Source of the DNA: Clostridia bacterium
Lineage (GTDB): Bacteria > Bacillota > Clostridia > Oscillospirales > CAG-382
Assembly: GCA_017537345.1 (NCBI GenBank)
Contig: JAFYKY010000005.1
Span: 1 to 64,000 of the forward strand
Reading direction: 5' to 3'
Length of the DNA stretch: 64,000 bases
Below the pieces are notes generated by a model, which saw only the letters and a program-made list of their open reading frames with translations, was not told where the DNA came from and ran no database searches. Position numbers and translations under genes: made by a program. This document shows, in pieces, positions 7,244 to 47,046 of this stretch; the stretch's first letter is position 1, and each line of letters begins with the position of its first letter.

Positions 7244-8515
7244 ATGAATTATAACGAAGCTCTTGAATATATACATTCAGTATGCTGGAAGGGAAGCGTA
7301 CCCGGACTTTCCAGAATAAGCAAACTGCTTTCTCTTATGGGCAATCCGGAAAAAAAGCTTAAATACGTACATATAGTCGGTACCAACGGGAAAGGCTCTA
7401 CCGCATCCATTATTACTTCCGTGCTTAATTCGGCAGGATATAAAGCGGGTATGTACACTTCTCCCTTTATCATTTCCTTTAACGAGCGTATACAGATAAA
7501 CGGGGAAATGATATCGGATGAAAGCCTTGCGGAGATCACCGAATATATAAAGCCTTTTGCTGATTCTATGGAGGACCGTCCCACAGAGTTTGAATTGGTA
7601 ACCGCAGTTGCATTCGAGTACTATTACAGAAGCAAATGCGATATCGTCGTGCTGGAGGCGGGTATGGGCGGTGAATTTGATGCGACAAACGTAATTCCTT
7701 CGCCCGAAGTCGCTGTTTTTACAAATATTGGGCTTGACCATACCGATTATTTGGGCGATACTGTTGAGAAGATCGCTTTAACAAAATCTGGAATTCTCAA
7801 AAAGGGAAGCGAGTGCGTAATATATCCCTCCTACCCGAGCGCTGTAGAGGTTATAAAGCAAAAATGCGAATCTCTTGATATTCCGTATACCGTAGTTGAT
7901 TTTGATTCAATCAATCCCGTTTCCGCATCCATTGACGGTCAGATATTTGATTGGGCAGAATATAAATCACTTTCCACCGGACTTTTAGGCGCACATCAGC
8001 GCTGTAACGCCGCTACGGCTCTTACTGCGGTTAAAAAACTTGCAAAAAGAGGATTTTCCATTTCCGAAGAAAACGTCCGTAACGGGCTTTTAAACGCCGT
8101 GTGGCAGGGCAGATTTGAGGTACTGCGTAAAAAACCGTTGTTTATCGTCGACGGCGGTCACAACCCCCAGTGTATGGAAGCATTGGCAGAGAACATACGC
8201 GCTTATTTTCCCGATACACGCTTGACCGTTCTGACCGGAGTTCTGGCAGATAAGGATTACGCCGCTATGTATGACCTTATCGCTCCTTACGTAAAGGAGT
8301 TTATACTTGTAACTCCGCCGTCTCCCCGTGCACTTCCTGCCAAAGAGCTTGGCGAAAAGCTTTTGGTGTACGGAAAGCCTATAACTGTATGCAAGACTGT
8401 TTGTGAAGGTGTTGAAAAAGCCGTTTCTGCAGTTGAATCTGAAGGTGCAGTTCTTGCTTTCGGCTCCCTTTATATGATCGGCGATATAAAACAAGCTGTA
8501 GATAATATTATATAA
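7244..8515 (+). CDS. folC: Folylpolyglutamate synthase / dihydrofolate synthase
   Basis: Adds glutamates to folates, trapping them in the cell; some homologues also make dihydrofolate. The product (423 aa, usual length) has the P-loop GTNGKGS at residues 46-52, MYTSPFI and the FolC block LEAGMGGEFDATNV, then NIGLDHTDYLG, and the C-terminal Mur-ligase domain with VDGGHNP. ATG 7244 starts one base after the folT stop codon, indicating tight translational coupling; uptake and retention of folate are controlled together by the THF switch. Transcription ends at 8526-8546. Confidence 0.95.
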   Translation: MNYNEALEYIHSVCWKGSVPGLSRISKLLSLMGNPEKKLKYVHIVGTNGKGSTASIITSVLNSAGYKAGMYTSPFIISFNERIQINGEMISDESLAEITEYIKPFADSMEDRPTEFELVTAVAFEYYYRSKCDIVVLEAGMGGEFDATNVIPSPEVAVFTNIGLDHTDYLGDTVEKIALTKSGILKKGSECVIYPSYPSAVEVIKQKCESLDIPYTVVDFDSINPVSASIDGQIFDWAEYKSLSTGLLGAHQRCNAATALTAVKKLAKRGFSISEENVRNGLLNAVWQGRFEVLRKKPLFIVDGGHNPQCMEALAENIRAYFPDTRLTVLTGVLADKDYAAMYDLIAPYVKEFILVTPPSPRALPAKELGEKLLVYGKPITVCKTVCEGVEKAVSAVESEGAVLAFGSLYMIGDIKQAVDNII

Positions 8516-8525
8516 AATGAAATTC

Positions 8526-8548
8526 GGGCAAATTTTTTGCCCTTTTTT
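8526..8548 (+). terminator. Intrinsic terminator of folT-folC
   Basis: GGGCAAA / TTTGCCC stem followed by six Ts. Confidence 0.85.
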
Positions 8549-8556
8549 ATTTTTTT

Positions 8557-8581
8557 GAACCTTTTCCTTATTTCAAGCGAC
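8557..8581 (+). promoter_or_regulatory. Candidate ECF-type promoter (autoregulatory)
   Basis: GAACC (8557-8561, extended as GAACCTTTT), 16 bp, CGAC (8578-8581). This is the -35 GAAC / -10 CG-rich form used by ECF sigma factors and lies ahead of an ECF sigma gene. No good sigma-A promoter is present. A related GAACCTTTT occurs before the second ECF gene (21437). Confidence 0.5.
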
Positions 8582-8627
8582 TATATTAATGAAAACCGGT
8601 TTTTAATTTTTGAAAAGGAGGGATGAT

Positions 8628-9914
8628 GTGGATACAGTTTTTGAAAAGCTTTATTCGGAGCACTACCGTGCCGTTGAACGGTATGTTCGTTTTAAGGTAT
8701 CGGATAAGTTCGACAGCGACGATATTCTCCAAGAGATCCATATTGCCGCTTATCGAAACTTTGGCGGGCTTAAAAGCAATGACGCATTTAAAAGTTGGCT
8801 GTTAAGTATTGCACGGAATAAACTAAACGATTATTTCCGTAAAAAAGCAAGCAGGCTTGATATTCCCGTAGATAATCTTACGGATATCCGCCCGTTGGGT
8901 TCAATGCTGTGCAGAAGCAGTATTCCTGCAGTAACCGATACTCTCGAAAAATTGGGAGATAAGGATAAACAAATACTTTATCTTTACTTTTGGAAACAGT
9001 ATTCGCAGGCAGAGATAGCTTCAAAGCTCGGTGTACCGTTAGGCACGGTAAAAAGCAGATTATCTTCGGCAAAAGCACATTTTAAAGAAAAATTCCCTTA
9101 TCATCCGAAACAAAAAGGAGAAACTGATATGAAAACATTACCTGAAATTTTACCCGAATTTAAAATAAAAAAGATAGATAAACCGCCCTTTGAAGTTAAA
9201 TGGGAAGAGCTTATGGGATGGTTTTTGGTGCCCAAAGAAGGAGAAAAGCTCTCCTGGGCGATGTACGATATGCCCCATAAATCTATCGGCGAAATATGCG
9301 AAATGAAGGTTATCGGAAAGGCGGAGGTACACGGAATAGAAGGCGTGGAGATACATGCGGTGGAAACAAATCCTATGGGATGCAACAGCGCCGGAGGACA
9401 AAATAAGGTAGAGCGCAGCTTTGTCGCCCAGCTTACCGATACGCATTGCAGACTTCTTGCCGAAAGCCACACGGAGAACGGAGTAAAAAGGTATTATACC
9501 TTCCTTGACGGCGATCCTTTTTTAGCAAATTGGGGATTCGGAGAGGACAACTGCGGTAACGAGATAAATATCGCTCCAAAAGGAGATATTGTTTTTAAAA
9601 ACGGCGAATATTTCGCAAAAGAAAAGGATTTTCTTTTGGACGTTGTGGGACGGTATGATGTCACGGTAAACGGCAAGACATACGATACCGTTTGCGTAAT
9701 GGATTGCTATACTTATATTGACGGCGCCGCTTCGCTTCAATTTATTGATAAGAACGGAAAAACAGTTCTGTGGCGCCGTTTCAACAGAAACGACTGGGCT
9801 TTCAACCGTTACGGTAAGCTGTGGACGGAGATGCTTCCCGAAAGCGAAAAGATAGTAGTTAACGGTGAAACCTATGTTAATTGGTACGATTGCATTACAG
9901 ACTATATAATTTAA
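8628..9914 (+). CDS. ECF sigma factor with large C-terminal extension
   Basis: Residues 1-75 are sigma region 2 (ERYVRFKVSDKFDSDDILQEIHI, then WLLSIARNKLNDYFRKK) and residues 100-155 region 4 (LGDKDKQILYLYFWKQYSQ, EIASKLGVPLGTVKSRLSSA). About 260 further residues follow, an unrecognised soluble domain rich in aromatic residues and glycine (LMGWFLVPKEGEKLSWAMYD near its start). GTG 8628 fits AAGGAGG at 8614-8620. Inside the frame AAAAAGGAG (9112-9120) precedes ATG 9129 by 8 bp, ideal for separate translation of the C-terminal part. The extension may sense a signal or act as an anti-sigma. It is preceded by an ECF-like promoter. Confidence 0.85.
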   Translation: MDTVFEKLYSEHYRAVERYVRFKVSDKFDSDDILQEIHIAAYRNFGGLKSNDAFKSWLLSIARNKLNDYFRKKASRLDIPVDNLTDIRPLGSMLCRSSIPAVTDTLEKLGDKDKQILYLYFWKQYSQAEIASKLGVPLGTVKSRLSSAKAHFKEKFPYHPKQKGETDMKTLPEILPEFKIKKIDKPPFEVKWEELMGWFLVPKEGEKLSWAMYDMPHKSIGEICEMKVIGKAEVHGIEGVEIHAVETNPMGCNSAGGQNKVERSFVAQLTDTHCRLLAESHTENGVKRYYTFLDGDPFLANWGFGEDNCGNEINIAPKGDIVFKNGEYFAKEKDFLLDVVGRYDVTVNGKTYDTVCVMDCYTYIDGAASLQFIDKNGKTVLWRRFNRNDWAFNRYGKLWTEMLPESEKIVVNGETYVNWYDCITDYII

Positions 9915-9921
9915 CTTTTTT

Positions 9922-9955
9922 ACATCGGCTGTATTTTCAGCCGATGTTTTTTATT
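9922..9955 (+). terminator. Intrinsic terminator
   Basis: ACATCGGCTG / CAGCCGATGT stem with a T run. Confidence 0.87.
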
Positions 9956-10029
9956 TCTCTTATTATGTTTTCTTAAAATTTGGGAATAACTTAAATATGA
10001 GCGAAAAAATGTTCAAAAAGGGGTAAAAA

Positions 10030-11301
10030 ATGAAAAAGTATAATAAGCTTATCTCAATAATATTACTTTGCGCTTCAATGATCGTCGTCTTTACGGCTTG
10101 TATCGGCAGAGGAGGAGATGAATCCGAAGCCTCCCGTACCGACAAAAAAACAGAGGTGCGTGTATGGGTACCCGAGGAAGTGGTAAAGCTGACCCGCGAT
10201 GCGGTTGACGGATGGCTGGAAAAGGGCGGAAAACAATACGCCGCCAAATATACCGTAACGGTTACTGCTATGAGCGAAGATAACTCTGCTACTCAAATGC
10301 TTACAGACGTGGACGCAGGCGCGGATATCTTTGGTTTTGCGCAGGACCAGTTGGCTCGTCTTGTTGCGGCAGGGGCGCTTTCGCCTTTGGGCGGTGATTT
10401 TTTGACTGCGGTTCGGAACAATAATGATGAAGGTTCGGTTAAAGCCGCTACCCTGCAGGATAAGGTATACGCATATCCCCAGACTTCCGACAACGGTTAT
10501 TTTATGTACTATGATAAATCAGTGGTAAAAGACCCGTCCAAGCTTGAAAATATTCTTGCCGATTGTAAAGAGGCAGGTAAAAAGTTTTATATGAATATGC
10601 AAAGCGGCTGGTATAACGTAACGTTTTTCTTCGGCGCGGGAGCGAAAATCAGCTACGACGTTGATAAAAACGGTAATATCAGTAATTGTAACAGCACTTT
10701 AGCGACCGATAAAGGCGTTACGGCTTTAAAAGGAATGGTTGCTCTTACTTCGCATCCTGCTTATGCGCAAAGTGAAAACGCATCCTCTAAATTCAATCCC
10801 AAGGGCGGAGATGCGGCGGTTCTTATTTCCGGCGTATGGGATTCCGCGGTGATTTCAGACTTTTTGGGCGAAAACTACGGCGCCGCAAAACTGCCCACTT
10901 ATACCGTTGACGGCAAGGAATATCAGATGGGAAGCTTCGGCGGTTATAAAATGATCGGCGTAAAGCCCCAGAAGGATTCTGAAAAGCTTGTGTTCTGCCA
11001 CGCATTGGCGGCATTCCTTTCCGGAGAAGAAATGCAAACTCTTCGTTTTAAAGAAAAGGGCTGGGGTCCTTCAAATAAAAATGCCCAGTCATTGCAAGCC
11101 GTAAAAGAAAATATTGCTCTTTCCGCACTTGCATCACAGCTTGAGCATTCTGTTGCCCAAGGTCAGTATCCGAACGAATTCTGGAATATTATGGAGGCTT
11201 TCGGAACCGATCTTAACAGCGGAAAATTTGCTTCTAATACAAACGAACAGCTGTTGAATGCGCTTAAATCTCTGGAAAACGACCTGAAGGGCGCAAAATA
11301 A
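10030..11301 (+). CDS. Maltose/maltodextrin-type ABC transporter substrate-binding lipoprotein
   Basis: The 423-residue precursor has a lipoprotein signal with lipobox FTAC (Cys24). EVRVWVPEEVVKL is the family-1 binding-protein opening (as in MalE), followed by a hinge-type LTDVDAGADIFGFAQDQLARLV and AAVLISGVWDSAVI. It would sit on the outer face of the membrane and deliver an oligosaccharide, probably maltodextrin-like, to the permeases encoded next. ATG 10030 follows AAAAAGGGG. A stable hairpin separates it from the permease gene, typical of operons in which the binding protein must be made in excess. Confidence 0.88.
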   Translation: MKKYNKLISIILLCASMIVVFTACIGRGGDESEASRTDKKTEVRVWVPEEVVKLTRDAVDGWLEKGGKQYAAKYTVTVTAMSEDNSATQMLTDVDAGADIFGFAQDQLARLVAAGALSPLGGDFLTAVRNNNDEGSVKAATLQDKVYAYPQTSDNGYFMYYDKSVVKDPSKLENILADCKEAGKKFYMNMQSGWYNVTFFFGAGAKISYDVDKNGNISNCNSTLATDKGVTALKGMVALTSHPAYAQSENASSKFNPKGGDAAVLISGVWDSAVISDFLGENYGAAKLPTYTVDGKEYQMGSFGGYKMIGVKPQKDSEKLVFCHALAAFLSGEEMQTLRFKEKGWGPSNKNAQSLQAVKENIALSALASQLEHSVAQGQYPNEFWNIMEAFGTDLNSGKFASNTNEQLLNALKSLENDLKGAK

Positions 11302-11311
11302 CAAAGTTTTT

Positions 11312-11339
11312 GCAGACAGCCGTAAAAACGGCTGTCTGT
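11312..11339 (+). promoter_or_regulatory. Intercistronic hairpin between binding protein and permease genes
   Basis: GCAGACAGCCG and CGGCTGTCTGT form an 11-bp stem with a 6-nt loop and no following T run. It is likely an mRNA-stabilising or polarity element rather than a terminator. Confidence 0.65.
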
Positions 11340-11357
11340 ATCGGAAGGATACATTAT

Positions 11358-12869
11358 ATGTTGAACCGTGATTCATTGGATTTTTACAAACTTAACGGTC
11401 TGCAAAAAGTTTTTTACAAGTTTTTATGGTTTATTACCGCCGTCCCGAAAACCGCGTTGAATATATTAAAAAAAGCGTTTTATTCCGTAAGAGATTTTGT
11501 CTTTAAAACCTTTTCTGTGATCAGGAATATCGTACGTATTTTCAGGGACGGGGATATATACACAAGAATATCTTATTTTATTATGGGGTTTGGGCAATTT
11601 TTTCGTAAACAACCCTTAAGAGGTATTCTTTTTCTGGCTTTTCAGCTTGTTTTTATCCTTTATATGCTTTTATTCGGAATAAGCTATTTAGGTAAGCTGG
11701 ATGATCTGGGCGAAGTTGCGGCGGTAACCGTTATAAATGAATACGGTCTTGAAGTTATAGAATACAAGGATAACAGCCTGCAGATACTTTTGTACGGCGT
11801 CCTTACTTTATTTTTTTGCCTTGGCTTTATATATACGTGGTATGTTAACGTTAAGCAAAACGGGGTTGCTCAAACGCTTATAAACAAAGGTAAACTGCCA
11901 AAAAATGCAGCGGAGGACGTTCGTTCTCTTGCCGATGAGCAGTATCATAAAACACTGCTGGCACTGCCTCTTGCGGGAATACTGATCTTTACCGTAATTC
12001 CGTTGGTTTTTATGGTGTTGGTAGCGTTTACCAACTACGATTACACCCATCTTCCGCCCTCAAAGCTGTTTACTTGGGTGGGACTTGATAATTTCAAAAG
12101 CCTGTTGGGCGTGCAGGTGGCGGACGGAAAATTTGCTTTTACCTTCGGAGAAATATTGATCTGGACTCTGATCTGGGCTTTTTTCGCCACCTTTACAAAC
12201 TATTTTCTGGGTATTCTCGTTGCAATGCTCATAAATAAAAAAGGCATAAAATTCAAAAAGGTTTTCCGTACCCTGCTTATATTCACTATTGCGGTGCCCC
12301 AGTTCGTTTCGCTTTTGCTTATTTCCAAAATGCTGGCAAACGATGGCGCCGTAAACGGTATTCTTTTACAGATCGGAGTTATAAAAGAAAATATAAAATG
12401 GCTTACAGATCCCATATTGGCTCGGATAACAGTTATATTGGTCAATATATGGCTGGGAATACCGTATACGATGCTTATCGCCACGGGTATACTCATCAAT
12501 ATTCCCGCAGATCTTTACGAATCTGCGCGTATTGACGGAGCCAGCGGTATAAAAAGGTTCACCAAAATAACTATGCCCTATATGCTTTTTGTAACCGGAC
12601 CGTATCTGCTTACCACATTTGTTGGAAATATTAACAACTTTAACGTTATATATCTTCTTACGGGCGGCGCGCCGAAGACTACCGATTTTACCGGCGGGGC
12701 AGGGTATACCGATCTGCTTATTACTTGGCTGTACAAGCTTACTCTTACCGATAACGATTATAAAATGGCGGCGGTAATAGGTATAATGACCTTTGTTGTG
12801 GTAGCCGGAATTTCACTTGTGGTCTACAACCTTTCGTCTTCTGTCAAAAACGAGGAAAGTTTCCAATGA
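11358..12869 (+). CDS. ABC sugar permease, MalF type
   Basis: 503 residues. The first 75 are amphipathic and basic with many aromatic residues (FYKLNGLQKVFYKFLWF), a long N-terminal extension. Membrane spans follow near 90-112, 150-170 and 210-235, then the permease core. The coupling EAA-type loop SARIDGASGIKRFTKITMPYM is at about residues 391-411. It forms the channel with the next gene product. ATG 11358 has GGAAGGAT upstream. The stop overlaps the next start (ATGA). Confidence 0.9.
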   Translation: MLNRDSLDFYKLNGLQKVFYKFLWFITAVPKTALNILKKAFYSVRDFVFKTFSVIRNIVRIFRDGDIYTRISYFIMGFGQFFRKQPLRGILFLAFQLVFILYMLLFGISYLGKLDDLGEVAAVTVINEYGLEVIEYKDNSLQILLYGVLTLFFCLGFIYTWYVNVKQNGVAQTLINKGKLPKNAAEDVRSLADEQYHKTLLALPLAGILIFTVIPLVFMVLVAFTNYDYTHLPPSKLFTWVGLDNFKSLLGVQVADGKFAFTFGEILIWTLIWAFFATFTNYFLGILVAMLINKKGIKFKKVFRTLLIFTIAVPQFVSLLLISKMLANDGAVNGILLQIGVIKENIKWLTDPILARITVILVNIWLGIPYTMLIATGILINIPADLYESARIDGASGIKRFTKITMPYMLFVTGPYLLTTFVGNINNFNVIYLLTGGAPKTTDFTGGAGYTDLLITWLYKLTLTDNDYKMAAVIGIMTFVVVAGISLVVYNLSSSVKNEESFQ

Positions 12870-13726
12870 AAACAATGGCATCAAGCGTTTTTAAAAAGAA
12901 AAAAGCGTGGAACTTTTTTGTTTACGCTTTGCTTATATCAATATGTTCGATATGGCTGTTACCCTTTGTATATCTTATTTTTCAGGCATTCAGAGGCGAA
13001 TCCAGCGGAATGGTCAGCTATATACTGCCAAAAGAGTGGTCTTTGGTAAATTTTAAGATTCTGTTTACGCAGACAAGCTTTTTGAATTGGTATATCAATA
13101 CCGTAATAATTGCATTATTTACCGCTTTTTTTCAGACAGTTATCGTTCTTTCGGTAAGCTACGCCCTTTCAAGACTGCGTTTCAGAGGCAGACGTCTGCT
13201 TATGAATATGATTTTGGTTCTGGGAATGTTTCCGGGGTTTCTTTCAATGATAGCAGTATACTTTATATTAAAGCTTATTGGCTTTACTGGGCCGGGATCC
13301 GTGCCCGGACTCATACTTGTATATATCGGCAGTTCGGGAATGGGATATTACGTAGCAAAGGGTTTTTTCGATACGATTCCCCGTTCCCTTGATGAAGCCG
13401 CGCGGATAGACGGCGCCAGCAGGGCAAAGGTGTTTTATAAGATAATACTGCCTATGGCGAAGCCTATTATTATTTATACCGTTATGATGGCTTTTATCGC
13501 TCCCTGGGGGGATTATATGTTCGCATCGCTCATAACCTTCGGTTACGAGGAAGCGTATAATGTGGCGGTAGGACTGTTTACGTTTCTTGACAGAGAGCAT
13601 ATAAATAACTATTTTACCGTGTTCTGCGCAGGCGGTCTGCTGGTGGCGCTTCCCATAACGGTTTTGTTTATGATGCTTCAGAAATATTATGTTGAAGGCG
13701 TAACGGGCGGTGCGGTAAAGGGATAA
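12866..13726 (+). CDS. ABC sugar permease, MalG type
   Basis: 286 residues with six membrane spans. The coupling loop DEAARIDGASRAKVFYKIIL at about residues 176-195 is the EAA motif of family-1 sugar permeases. The start overlaps the preceding gene by 4 bp, so translation is coupled. Together with the MalF-type protein it forms the membrane channel of the importer. Confidence 0.92.
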   Translation: MKTMASSVFKKKKAWNFFVYALLISICSIWLLPFVYLIFQAFRGESSGMVSYILPKEWSLVNFKILFTQTSFLNWYINTVIIALFTAFFQTVIVLSVSYALSRLRFRGRRLLMNMILVLGMFPGFLSMIAVYFILKLIGFTGPGSVPGLILVYIGSSGMGYYVAKGFFDTIPRSLDEAARIDGASRAKVFYKIILPMAKPIIIYTVMMAFIAPWGDYMFASLITFGYEEAYNVAVGLFTFLDREHINNYFTVFCAGGLLVALPITVLFMMLQKYYVEGVTGGAVKG

Positions 13727-13746
13727 ACAGCAAGGGGGAACGTTTT

Positions 13747-14895
13747 TTGGCAAGCGTAGTATTAAACCAAGTTAAAAAGATATATAAAGGCGGCTTTACC
13801 GCAGTAAAAAATTTTGATTTGGAAATAAAAGATAAAGAATTCGTGGTGTTTGTAGGGCCTTCGGGGTGCGGAAAAAGTACCACTCTGCGTATGATAGCAG
13901 GACTTGAAGAAATATCCGAGGGCAAGATATATATAGACGGAATATGCGTAAATGATACTGAACCGAAGGACAGAGATATAGCAATGGTGTTTCAGAATTA
14001 CGCGCTGTATCCGCACATGTCCGTATATGAAAATATGGCGTTCGGTCTTGTTTTACGCCGCGTAAACAAAGAGGAGATACACCGCCGTGTTCTTGAAGCG
14101 GCGGAGATCCTGGGCATATCGGATCTTTTGGGCAGAACGCCCCGCGCGCTTTCCGGCGGTCAAAGGCAGAGAGTGGCTATAGGAAGGGCTATAGTCCGCG
14201 TTCCGCGAGTTTTTTTAATGGACGAGCCTCTTTCCAATCTGGACGCAAAGCTTCGTAATCAGATGCGTACGGAGATAATGCTGCTGCGTGAAAAAATAGA
14301 CACCACCTTCATTTACGTAACCCACGACCAGACGGAAGCTATGACGCTGGGCGACCGAATAGTTATAATGAAGGACGGTTACATCCAGCAGGTGGGCACA
14401 CCGAGCGAGGTGTTCGATTCTCCCGCAAATATCTTTGTTGCAGGGTTTATCGGGTCTCCTACAATGAATTTCTTTAAAGCAAAAATTACCGGAAATATAG
14501 ATAAGCCGTATCTGTACGTTTGCGGAGAAGAAATGGCAATACCCAAAAAAATATTAAATGAAATTCAAATACCCGAAGACAAAAACGTACTCCTCGGCAT
14601 ACGTCCGGAGCACATATTTATTTCCCGCAGAGAGGGAATTGCAGGTAAAATAAAGGTTTCGGAAATGATGGGAAGCGAGCTTCATATCCACCTGTCCACA
14701 GAAGACGGTGTACCCGTGGTTATCCGCGTACCCACGCTTGATCTTGACGAAGAACAAAAAAGCAGTCTTTCGCCCCACAATACGGTGTACTTCGGATTTC
14801 ATCAACACGCAATGCATTTTTTCGATATCAAAACAGGAGAAAACCTAAGGAAAACGAGCAGCTTTGAGAAAAAACGGAATTCGAACTTGACATAG
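13747..14895 (+). CDS. ABC sugar importer ATPase, MsmK/UgpC/MalK type
   Basis: 382 residues. Walker A GPSGCGKST (36-44), Q-loop at MVFQNYALYPHM, signature ALSGGQRQR, Walker B VFLMDEPLSNLD and the switch His in VTHDQTEAM are all present. A C-terminal TOBE regulatory region (LLGIRPEHI) follows. It energises the importer made of the three preceding gene products. The start is TTG 13747, preceded by AAGGGGGAA. Its last codons contain the -35 box of the small RNA element at 14887. Confidence 0.95.
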   Translation: MASVVLNQVKKIYKGGFTAVKNFDLEIKDKEFVVFVGPSGCGKSTTLRMIAGLEEISEGKIYIDGICVNDTEPKDRDIAMVFQNYALYPHMSVYENMAFGLVLRRVNKEEIHRRVLEAAEILGISDLLGRTPRALSGGQRQRVAIGRAIVRVPRVFLMDEPLSNLDAKLRNQMRTEIMLLREKIDTTFIYVTHDQTEAMTLGDRIVIMKDGYIQQVGTPSEVFDSPANIFVAGFIGSPTMNFFKAKITGNIDKPYLYVCGEEMAIPKKILNEIQIPEDKNVLLGIRPEHIFISRREGIAGKIKVSEMMGSELHIHLSTEDGVPVVIRVPTLDLDEEQKSSLSPHNTVYFGFHQHAMHFFDIKTGENLRKTSSFEKKRNSNLT

Positions 14896-21436: not shown

Positions 21437-21459
21437 GAACCTTTTTCGGAAATTGCGAC
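21437..21459 (+). promoter_or_regulatory. Possible ECF-type promoter of second sigma gene
   Basis: GAACCTTTT (21437-21445) then CGAC (21456-21459); spacer 14 bp, two less than at 8557, so weaker as a candidate. Confidence 0.35.
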
Positions 21460-21494
21460 CTTGTAAACGAAAGCTTTCAAAAGAGGAACCGAAA

Positions 21495-23177
21495 ATGACA
21501 AAAGAACGTCTTGAAGAGCAAATTGAATTTTTGCTGTCGGCTGCTTTAAAAAAGTGCGGCAATATGCAGGACGCGGAGGATCTTACCCAGGAAACCTTGC
21601 TGTGCGCTTTGTCTTATGAGGCAAAGGGCGGAGTTATTAACGATCTCCGCGGCTGGCTCCTTACCGTTTTAAGCAACAAATGGAACAATATGCTTCGTAA
21701 AAAATACCGTCAGCCCCTTGTGGCGATAGGCGAAGGGTTTGATATTGTTGACGAAAGCGTTTGTTTTTCCGAAGAAGAGGAATACGATAAAGCCGAAAAC
21801 GTGCGAAAAACCGTGGCGTATATGGCAAAAACTTACCGCGAGGTGATTGTGCGCCATTATATGAACGGAGAAAGCGTGGCTGAAATTTCCAAATCTATGG
21901 GAATCCCCGAAGGGACCGTTAAAAGCAGACTGCACAGCGGAAGAAACCGTATGAAAGAGGAAATGAAATTTATGGAAAATTATTCTAACCAAAGCTATAG
22001 TCCAGTTTCGCTGCAGATAAACAACAGCGGCAACAACGGCATAAACAATGAACCTGGCTCCCTTGTCAGAAACGATCTGCTGGCGCAGAATGTACTTTGG
22101 GCGGCATACGAAAAGCCGGTTACCGCTCAGGACATTGCAAAAAGTATAGGCGTGCCCACCGCATATGTTGAGCCTGTAATCGAAAGGCTCACGGAAGGGG
22201 AGTTGATGGTCAGAATCGGCAATAAATACTATACAGATTTTATTATTTGTACTGTCGAAGACAAAGAAAAGCATATTCCCGCGCAAAAAGAATTTATAAA
22301 AGATAATTTTTCGCTTATTTGGAAGTATATAGGAAACGGGCTTGACAAGCTGAAACAGCAGGATCTTTACAAAAAGCTTAATTCCGACCAAAAGAATTCA
22401 CTTGAAATGTATTTTACTTTCAACTGTCTTGATTACGGCATATACCGTATCGTAAGCAACATTCTGGGCGCGGAGCAGAAGTTTCCTTACAGAAAAGACG
22501 GCGGACGTTGGATAGCCTTTGCCACTGTAAATTTTGCGGAATTCAACCCTATGGAGCATCTTGACCTTATGATGCACTCCTACAGCGGCGAACGGCACAC
22601 ATATTTTGAAAAGTTTACAAACCGTATGGTATGTCAGCACGTATACTCCGCCGACGGATTTCCCAATTACTCTTATTATGCTTCACCCGATTATAATTTT
22701 ATCAAAGCGGGCGAAGACGTTGACGAGATTATTACAAAGCTGTTGTTTATTCTTCATATGGGTATTCCTGCGGAACACGTAGGCTTTAACGAAGAATACT
22801 TAAAGATGATCCCTCATCTTACGAAATGCAAAATATTGCGGGAAGAAAACGGGCAGATATTCGTTAATATACCCGTTATCAATGAAAAGGAATTCGGTAT
22901 TCTTTTAGAACTTCTTGAGGAAGCAAAACGCGGTATGGAAGCGGACGAAGAGCTTAAAAACCTTTTTGCCGAGTTTTTAAGCGGAAAAGAAACGCTTTGT
23001 CCTTCCCATATAGAAAGCATACCCGTTTTCAAGCGGTATCAGTGTCCCGTAAACGCTATGTTGTTTTCCTGCGTGAGAGAGGCAATAAATAGAAACGAAC
23101 TGTACGACGGCAATTATGATGATGACAACGAAAAAGTAAACCAGCATCCTTGTCCGATGATACTGGTAATCGAATAA
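21495..23177 (+). CDS. ECF-like sigma factor with long C-terminal extension
   Basis: 560 residues. Region 2 (ALKKCGNMQDAEDLTQETLL, WLLTVLSNKWNNMLRKK) and region 4 (KTYREVIVRHYMNGESV, EISKSMGIPEGTVKSRLHSG) occupy residues 1-155. A short Asn/Ser linker follows. Then LLAQNVLWAAYEKPVTAQDIAK with YVEPVIERLTEGELMVRI (about 195-245) looks like a second, winged helix-turn-helix domain, and some 300 further residues are unrecognised. ATG 21495 follows AAGAGGAACC. This is far longer than classical ECF sigmas (about 180 aa) and no separate anti-sigma gene is adjacent, so regulation is probably built in. Confidence 0.82.
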   Translation: MTKERLEEQIEFLLSAALKKCGNMQDAEDLTQETLLCALSYEAKGGVINDLRGWLLTVLSNKWNNMLRKKYRQPLVAIGEGFDIVDESVCFSEEEEYDKAENVRKTVAYMAKTYREVIVRHYMNGESVAEISKSMGIPEGTVKSRLHSGRNRMKEEMKFMENYSNQSYSPVSLQINNSGNNGINNEPGSLVRNDLLAQNVLWAAYEKPVTAQDIAKSIGVPTAYVEPVIERLTEGELMVRIGNKYYTDFIICTVEDKEKHIPAQKEFIKDNFSLIWKYIGNGLDKLKQQDLYKKLNSDQKNSLEMYFTFNCLDYGIYRIVSNILGAEQKFPYRKDGGRWIAFATVNFAEFNPMEHLDLMMHSYSGERHTYFEKFTNRMVCQHVYSADGFPNYSYYASPDYNFIKAGEDVDEIITKLLFILHMGIPAEHVGFNEEYLKMIPHLTKCKILREENGQIFVNIPVINEKEFGILLELLEEAKRGMEADEELKNLFAEFLSGKETLCPSHIESIPVFKRYQCPVNAMLFSCVREAINRNELYDGNYDDDNEKVNQHPCPMILVIE

Positions 23178-45328: not shown

Positions 45329-47017
45329 TTAATCTTCTATTGCCGCTTTCTTTTCAAGCGCCTTTTTAAACAATTCGGGGTCCGCTTTGGGCTGTCTGTC
45401 ATAGGTATAAAGCCCGTTGCGCTCCTGCTCGATATCATAAAGCTGTGTATAGCAAAGTCCGCAAATACGTTTATTGCGCAAAAGCACGTCAGCAAGGGAA
45501 GCGAACCGTTCTACAAGCTCTTCGGCGCTGCCTGCGCAATTACCGTAACCCCAAGCGCCTTCTTCGGGATTAACAGCGGTGCCGCCGTATTCGCTCATAA
45601 ATACGGGTAAAATACCGTCGTAATTCTGTCTGCCGCTGTAAGCATCGTAAAGCGGGGCGCCGTTTGCAAAAGCATCGTACCTTTCGGAATATACTTCGGG
45701 ACTTTGCTCGTAATCGTGAAGATCGTAGCAATCCGTATCGTAATGCATACCGCCGCTTGCGTCAATGCAGGGGCGGGTAGGGTCATATTCCTTTGTAAAA
45801 CGGTATACTTCCTTTGTGTTTTCCGCCTGCTTTTCTCCGGCGTTTTTATCGTTCATAGGATCGTACATCGTTTCGTTGAGAGGACACCAGCCAATGATGG
45901 ACGGATGGTTGAAATCTCTGTCAATTATCTGTTTCCATTCGTGAAGCATGATTTCCTTTGCTTTATCGTCCGCAACGCTTATTCCCCAACTGGGATATTC
46001 GCCCCAAACTATATAACCCTGCATATCGCAGATATAGAGGAAAAGGGGCTCAAACACCTTCTGGTGCAGTCTTGCTCCGTTAAATCCGCACTTTTTGGAT
46101 ATAAGAATATCATTTTCAAGGGCTTCCTTTGTGGGAGCAGTGTATATTCCGTCGGGATAAAAGCCTTGGTCAAGTACAAGACGCTGGAACACGCTTTCGC
46201 CGTTGAACAGATACTTTCCGTCCTTGAATTCGGTACTGCGAAGCCCGAAATAAGAAAGCACCTTGTCTTTACCGCATCTTATGGTGGCGTAGTAAACGCC
46301 GCCTTTGCCGATCTCCCACAGATGAACCTCGGTCAAGGTAATTTCAAAAACGTCTTTACCTTTGCCGTAACCGCAAAGTCTGCCGTGCCAGTAAAGCTGA
46401 ACCTCCACCTCGTCATCCGCAACTACCTCAACGCGTACCTTACCGTTTGCCGCATCGGGATAGAATTTAAAGGAATGAAGGTATTTTTCGGGAACGAATT
46501 CCATCCATACCGTCTGCCATATACCGGTGGTGCGCGTGTAATAACAGCCGTGGGATTCGGGCTTCATAGATTGCTTTCCGGTGGGCTGATAGGGTGAAAG
46601 CGTATCGTCGTCCGTGCAGACGGTAATTACGTTTTGTCCGTCCTTCAAATAGTCGGTTATATCGTATGTAAACGTAACCTGACCGCCGATGTGCTTTTCG
46701 AGCTGTGTGTCGTTTATCCAGACGGTTGTTTCGTAATCGCAGGCGCCGAAATGCAAAAGGGCGCGCATATTGTGTACAGTGCTTACGTTAAGCGTTCTGC
46801 GGTACCATATTCTCTTTATAAAATCCGTAATTCCGATACCGGAAAGCGGGCTCTCCGGCGCAAAGGGCACGTTTATCTTAAGAGGGAAAACGCTGTTTTT
46901 ATCAAGCGTTTTTTCATTATCTATCGCACATTCCCAAACACCGTTAAGATTGTGCCAGCTATCGCGTACGCACATAGGGTTTGGATGCTCCGCTCTGGGT
47001 ATTTTATTAATAATCAT
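45329..47017 (-). CDS. GH2 family glycoside hydrolase
   Basis: 562 residues. Sugar-binding domain with RRTLNVSTV, GACDYETTVWIND and the HxGGxxxFxxD-type turn (HIGGQVTFTYDIT), an Ig-like middle domain, then the barrel. The acid/base is in CPLNETM (about residue 384) and the nucleophile in FMSEYGG (about 474). GH2 covers beta-galactosidases, beta-glucuronidases and beta-mannosidases; the specificity cannot be read with confidence. No signal peptide. Shorter than LacZ because C-terminal domains are missing. Confidence 0.92.
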   Translation of the reverse strand: MIINKIPRAEHPNPMCVRDSWHNLNGVWECAIDNEKTLDKNSVFPLKINVPFAPESPLSGIGITDFIKRIWYRRTLNVSTVHNMRALLHFGACDYETTVWINDTQLEKHIGGQVTFTYDITDYLKDGQNVITVCTDDDTLSPYQPTGKQSMKPESHGCYYTRTTGIWQTVWMEFVPEKYLHSFKFYPDAANGKVRVEVVADDEVEVQLYWHGRLCGYGKGKDVFEITLTEVHLWEIGKGGVYYATIRCGKDKVLSYFGLRSTEFKDGKYLFNGESVFQRLVLDQGFYPDGIYTAPTKEALENDILISKKCGFNGARLHQKVFEPLFLYICDMQGYIVWGEYPSWGISVADDKAKEIMLHEWKQIIDRDFNHPSIIGWCPLNETMYDPMNDKNAGEKQAENTKEVYRFTKEYDPTRPCIDASGGMHYDTDCYDLHDYEQSPEVYSERYDAFANGAPLYDAYSGRQNYDGILPVFMSEYGGTAVNPEEGAWGYGNCAGSAEELVERFASLADVLLRNKRICGLCYTQLYDIEQERNGLYTYDRQPKADPELFKKALEKKAAIED

Positions 47018-47046
47018 AAAATATTACTCCTTAATTTGGTGTTTTT

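Follow-up and report, generated by a model that had tools for sequence, protein, structure and literature searches.

A clostridial ECF sigma factor gene with a conserved internal start at the join to its C-terminal extension: a predicted source of two proteins

The existence of ECF sigma factors that have no accompanying anti-sigma gene is a recognized gap in the understanding of these regulators, and control by C-terminal extensions is understood for few ECF groups. At least 26 ECF groups carry N- or C-terminal extensions (PMC8999054). The 64,000-nucleotide stretch of clostridial DNA analyzed here (the window) contains such a gene, from a gut bacterium, in which a Shine-Dalgarno (SD) sequence and an in-frame ATG lie where the sigma factor gives way to its extension. 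This arrangement raises the question of whether the gene makes one protein or two and, if two, what the free extension might do.

Structure and class of the sigma factor gene

The gene occupies positions 8628 to 9914 of the plus strand, from a GTG start at 8628 to a stop codon at 9912 to 9914, and encodes a full-length product of 428 aa. It is preceded on the same strand by the SD sequence AAAAGGAGGG (8613 to 8622) and followed by an intrinsic terminator with a 10-pair stem and a T-rich tail (9922 to 9947, plus strand). Together with a terminator-like site 5' of the promoter (8526 to 8542), this terminator suggests a single-gene transcription unit. Sigma region 2 (8649 to 8849, plus strand; residues 8 to 74; Pfam PF04542, 2.7e-12) and sigma region 4 (8931 to 9080, plus strand; residues 102 to 151; Pfam PF08281, 3.4e-13) both score over the cut-off and are present without region 3, as is typical of group 4 ECF sigma factors, and the TIGR02937 model matches with 83 bits versus a cut-off of 42.9. 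The predicted promoter, TGAACC-N16-CGWC, likewise agrees with the group 4 pattern of GAAC at -35 and CGTC at -10.

Assignment to a finer class is less direct. The score against the SigZ model (TIGR02959) is 88.6 bits, below the curated cut-off of 168.65, and the protein falls outside the ECF41/SnoaL type, as Pfam detected no SnoaL-like C-terminal domain in the extension at E ≤ 1. The extension has singly conserved cysteines (C107, C142, C189, and C255) and no short Cys cluster, compared to the cysteine-rich, metal-sensing C-terminal domain of the CorE-type groups ECF238, ECF287, and ECF288. Groups ECF262 and ECF288 are candidates by host. ECF proteins with C-terminal extensions are already an established kind. 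In the excerpts of the two papers that describe ECF41, the CorE group ECF238, and the TPR-containing ECF42 (PMC3426412, PMC8999054), these proteins similarly join sigma2-sigma4 to a large C-terminal domain in one polypeptide and lack a conserved anti-sigma gene, and the same excerpts contain no mention of a conserved internal translation start. The extension described here differs from those of ECF41, CorE, and ECF42 in being beta-rich and unclassified, with no SnoaL, TPR, or zinc-finger match.

The extension and its partners

Searches with the extension against Pfam (E ≤ 1), NCBIfam, and the PDB returned no credible match, and Pfam searches with 36 aligned relatives identified no convincing family. 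A candidate relationship to the IMP beta-lactamase was discarded (E of 0.09 to 1.4, with about 33 residues covered). Structure prediction, which the initial annotation had proposed as a check, produced an AlphaFold2 model with a pLDDT of 85 and a pTM of 0.85; the exception is a low-confidence segment, residues 128 to 142, which spans most of the near-invariant NWGFGEDNCGNE motif. The best Foldseek matches of this model were the YmcC-like/LolA-like half-barrels 3fzx (E of 2.5e-3, probability of 1.0) and 4fvs, and LolA3 (9tp6), a weak similarity with TM-scores of 0.29 to 0.44 and large rmsd values. The YmcC-like/LolA-like lipoproteins are exported, whereas the extension belongs to a cytoplasmic sigma factor, of which it is the C-terminal part. 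The fold would also be loosely like that of RseB, the sensor of the sigma-E pathway, but the TM-scores are too low to claim a relationship. A fold search of BFVD gave no match. Pairwise conservation is 0.64 in the extension versus 0.57 in the sigma part.

A scan of species genomes detected 257 relatives, of which 80 were retrieved; nearly all of these are labelled Clostridia, and their hosts include Lachnospiraceae, Oscillospiraceae, Christensenellaceae, and further clostridial groups. In whole-genome searches, the extension was found in 40 of the 295 genomes of the order and in 15 of the 391 genomes of the class, and in a phylum sample of 300 genomes it was found solely in the window's own genome, so its distribution is apparently class-restricted and sporadic. 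Copies broken by stop codons or reduced to remnants occur in several genomes (L032, L056, L077, L110, L124, L133, G305:C199, and G612:C16/C33), which suggests frequent gain and loss. Searches of phages, plasmids, and viral contigs revealed no relative of the extension, so that a mobile carrier is not indicated.

All intact copies of the extension are fused in frame with a DNA-binding part on their N-terminal side. A search for homologues in which the two parts are separate genes, another check proposed in the initial annotation, found no free-standing extension gene in the approximately 1,000 genomes sampled. Two apparent cases were rejected: one copy (L105) is truncated where its contig ends, and the other (L110) carries a frameshift inside its sigma part. 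The most distant sigma fusions, with 29% (L122) and 22% (L123) identity over the extension, still retain AAAGGAG or AAAGGAA followed by ATG. In a paralogue encoded in the same genome (L002; 31 to 34% identity), the extension lies behind a domain of the CD3324 family (NF040785, 88.8 bits with a cut-off of 65), and the join reads AAGGAG-AAGAAA-ATG. The CD3324 family resembles the present case in that the same extension is joined at an SD and ATG but differs in that its members are not sigma factors; the fusion was seen at two very close loci only (L002:1252-2277, on G000:C9, and L121), both with SD and ATG at the join. The presence of this signal at both the sigma and the CD3324 joins indicates that the extension is a module attached at its own start codon. 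The suggestion in the initial annotation that two former genes were fused here fits this modularity, but in none of the genomes sampled was the extension found as a gene of its own.

The CD3324 domain is also found alone and with other partners. In four loci (L160, L161, L164, and L165), a CD3324-type domain forms the N-terminal part of other proteins, comprising an ORF that is about 449 aa long and a family that shares a conserved ELNDGNHR motif, and no obvious internal SD is present at these joins.

Conservation of the internal start

The internal SD, AAAAAGGAG, lies at 9112 to 9120 (plus strand), and the ATG at 9129 follows it by 8 nt, in frame and about 17 codons past the end of the Pfam region 4 match. 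Initiation there would yield a predicted free, beta-rich extension protein of 261 aa (9129 to 9914, plus strand). In the 60 predicted genes of the window, a 6-base SD at like spacing precedes 5 of the 447 internal ATGs that are in frame; 3 of these 5, located 26 to 37 codons into the ORF, are probably the true starts of mis-set ORFs. Since internal SD-ATG pairs are therefore uncommon in the window but not unique, the weight of the argument falls on the relatives. No plus-strand sigma-70 promoter was found near and 5' of 9129. Elsewhere in the window, an in-frame internal ATG with an SD-like AAAGGA occurs at 45949, in the TIM-barrel part of a glycoside hydrolase family 2 gene (45332 to 47020, minus strand).

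Of 109 distinct junctions, essentially all have an SD and a start codon, and 102 contain AGGAG, GGAGG, or AAGGA, although these counts are not independent, as the relatives share ancestry and the set includes close pairs. The heptamer AAAGGAG is kept at -15 to -9, wobble positions included, in about 100 of the 109, and ATG, GTG, or TTG stands at the start in every aligned relative. The SD lysine codon is AAA in 93 of 93 relatives (background of 0.61) and the SD glycine codon is GGA in 90 of 93 (background of 0.30), so the wobble bases are conserved as strongly as the other bases of the SD; the third codon may encode E, A, D, V, or G and is nearly always G-first. The distance from GGAG to the start is 8 nt in 92 of 100 cases. 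The ATG is replaced solely by GTG (three cases) or TTG (one case), or else the start shifts by one to a few codons along with the SD (L048, L054, L057, L105, L112, L119, L122, and L123). In L060, L078, L087, and L122 the SD occupies another reading phase and thus encodes different residues. Several distinct groups of relatives show such movements and changes of phase.

The calculated energies follow the same trend. Mean anti-SD pairing at the internal site is -11.7 kcal/mol, compared to -8.3 kcal/mol after synonymous recoding of the linker (standard deviation of replicate means, 0.23) and -3.9 kcal/mol for 689 other in-frame ATGs, and mRNA structure around the internal start is weak (-5.1 versus -11.9 kcal/mol in control windows). 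In an unbiased codon-choice scan of 276 conserved columns, whose alignment had by chance included the upstream SD, the internal SD glycine ranked second, and the GGA/GGT pair just 5' of the full-length start, the glycines of the gene's own SD, ranked first and fourth. The internal site therefore behaves like a real one.

Could this signal be something other than a working start? It might be left over from the fusion of two genes that were once neighbors, with internal initiation incidental, a reading that draws on the modularity of the extension, which is attached at one and the same point to N-terminal domains of two unrelated kinds. However, a relic would be expected to decay, and here the wobble bases are as conserved as the coding ones, the SD recurs in a different phase, and the start codon moves with it in relatives down to 22% identity, all of which makes this origin of the signal very unlikely. 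Alternatively, AAAGGAG could serve as an SD-like pause for cotranslational folding or reflect protein-level conservation of Lys-Gly-Glu; the site does lie at a domain boundary, where K-G-E is common. Selection on the protein leaves unexplained the near-exclusive use of AAA and GGA and the varying residue at the third position, and a pause accounts neither for the fixed 8-nt spacing to ATG, GTG, or TTG nor for the weak structure, so that we regard either version as improbable in the extreme.

The comparison thus supports well the presence of two start sites on one gene, and the gene very likely also yields the extension as a separate, predicted protein. The initial annotation had placed an SD and in-frame ATG 9129 at the join; they are indeed there, are more than a chance occurrence, and are conserved in the relatives. 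Its proposal that the extension is made both fused and alone gains strong support from the retention of SD and start beyond the needs of the protein, to 22 to 31% identity, with the free form a predicted product. It had also held that the proposal would fail if homologues were always fused and the SD and ATG not conserved; the homologues are always fused, yet both elements are conserved.

An in-frame start with an SD conserved at the nucleotide level is what characterizes genes with internal initiation, which is itself an established phenomenon. In RpnL/RpnS and in Cas11d of type I-D Cascade (PMC10327210), an in-frame internal start with its SD similarly yields the C-terminal domain separately. 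The present case differs in that the host gene encodes a transcription initiation factor, the product is predicted, and the proteins are unrelated. Among open-licence papers, none was found that reports an internal start conserved in an ECF sigma factor, and the gene would extend the short list of conserved bacterial genes-within-genes to a transcription factor. More generally, comparative codon analysis at domain joins can reveal internal starts.

Promoter, palindrome, and the proposed circuit

The ECF-type promoter (8556 to 8582, plus strand) consists of the -35 element TGAACC (8556 to 8561), a 16-nt spacer, and the -10 element CGACT (8578 to 8582). It is conserved 5' of the homologues as TGAACC-N16-CGWCTATA: the strict form TGAACC-N16-CGWC is present in 94 of 107 homologues, and the spacer is 16 nt in 102 of 104. 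Within the genome to which the window belongs, a single TGAACCTTT site with exact spacing was found, the one at this gene. In 41 homologue-bearing genomes, the TGAACCTTT sites with a 16-nt spacer, among the sites listed, precede homologues, with one extra (G112:C42) in which the same promoter and palindrome run off the contig end; three further sites, among those listed, have a 17-nt spacer. With no second strict target site, the regulon is apparently the gene itself, as far as a strict pattern that would overlook diverged targets can tell, and a motif found essentially only 5' of its own gene suggests a one-gene self-controlling circuit. ECF41 likewise has a very narrow target set behind one conserved promoter motif, as described in the excerpts cited above (PMC3426412, PMC8999054), but in the present case the sigma gene is its own target.

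Directly 3' of the promoter, near +1, lies a 12-bp palindrome, AAAACCGGTTTT (8592 to 8603), a probable operator. At least five of six symmetric positions are kept in 92 of 104 homologues, compared to about 10% in shuffles; the center is at a fixed distance from the -10 element in 88 of the 104, and palindromes of the GAAANCGN'TTTC type stand 19 bp past the -10 start in about 90 homologues. The halves covary, as in GAAATCGATTTC, GAAAACGTTTTC, and GAAAGCGCTTTC. Given that the pair flanking the center is two bases apart, which makes pairing in an RNA hairpin impossible, the palindrome is likely read by a dimeric DNA-binding protein. The extension has no recognizable DNA-binding motif. The palindrome was also considered as part of a wider LacI regulon, which was rejected, as both further exact matches to the 12-mer in the genome fall within coding sequence.

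Beyond the closest relatives, no neighboring gene is conserved within the flanks examined, and no conserved anti-sigma gene adjoins the sigma gene there, which leaves the sigma without an evident anti-sigma partner. The gene structure, the internal start, the promoter with its private site, and the lack of a conserved neighbor are all supported by these comparisons of sequence.

A probable reading of the locus is that one gene specifies two proteins, a self-activating ECF sigma and a free extension acting in the same circuit. A promoter of the sigma's own type would drive the gene, yielding the full-length sigma with its 261-aa sensor or regulatory extension and, through initiation by ribosomes at ATG 9129 behind the internal SD, a protein consisting of the extension only. 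The sigma would activate its own promoter, and the output would be more sigma and more free extension. The latter most likely works in trans within this circuit; it could oligomerize or compete with the fused copy, limiting the positive feedback and replacing the missing anti-sigma, and the dimeric protein bound to the palindrome at the transcription start would be a further brake. Accumulation of the free extension, autoregulation, action in trans, and the direction of the effect are what we infer from this arrangement. The brake is favored by the Rpn precedent, in which the short C-terminal form inhibits the long one (PMC10327210), by the restraint that C-terminal extensions exert on ECF41 sigma factors in the excerpts of PMC3426412 and PMC8999054, and by the constant company of a DNA-binding partner. 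A more specific version, in which the circuit is self-contained, the gene is its own sole target, and the internal start frees a sensor that serves as intragenic anti-sigma or as the sole output, the same sensor also being grafted onto a CD3324-type protein, is put forward tentatively. If true, a conserved intragenic start would be an unsuspected means of supplying a sigma factor with a regulator of its own, and the comparison predicts the exact bases to change.

The free extension might instead be the effector, a binding protein or an enzyme, with the sigma as a self-contained switch and the internal start providing many copies per sigma. Such a role would suit a strict promoter found essentially at this gene alone, an extension that is the better conserved half and also occurs on a different DNA-binding partner, and a near-invariant NWGFGEDNCGNE loop modeled with low confidence, as might be expected of a ligand loop. 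The domain never appears without a DNA-binding partner in the genomes sampled, however, which fits a regulatory domain better, and no enzyme family matches it; we consider an effector role rather doubtful. The palindrome permits another account, in which a trans-acting LacI-like repressor controls the gene and the ECF promoter is used by another sigma. Its symmetry, CG center, and variable flanking pair are LacI-family-like, a likeness to LacI operators that we assume. Against this, the promoter motif tracks the gene across genomes that share no conserved neighborhood, and the genome has no second intergenic exact copy of the palindrome, so control of this kind is unlikely. The circuit of sigma and free extension remains the preferred reading.

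Matches to Rfam over 8450 to 10060 were at chance level, and PADLOC returned no match. Just downstream of the gene (10030 to 14895) lies a sugar ABC transporter operon encoding a solute-binding protein, two permeases, and an ATPase, an adjacency that is lost beyond close relatives. The window also encodes, at 21453 to 23177, another ECF sigma with an unclassified C-terminal part of about 400 aa and a weak TrmB-like winged helix.
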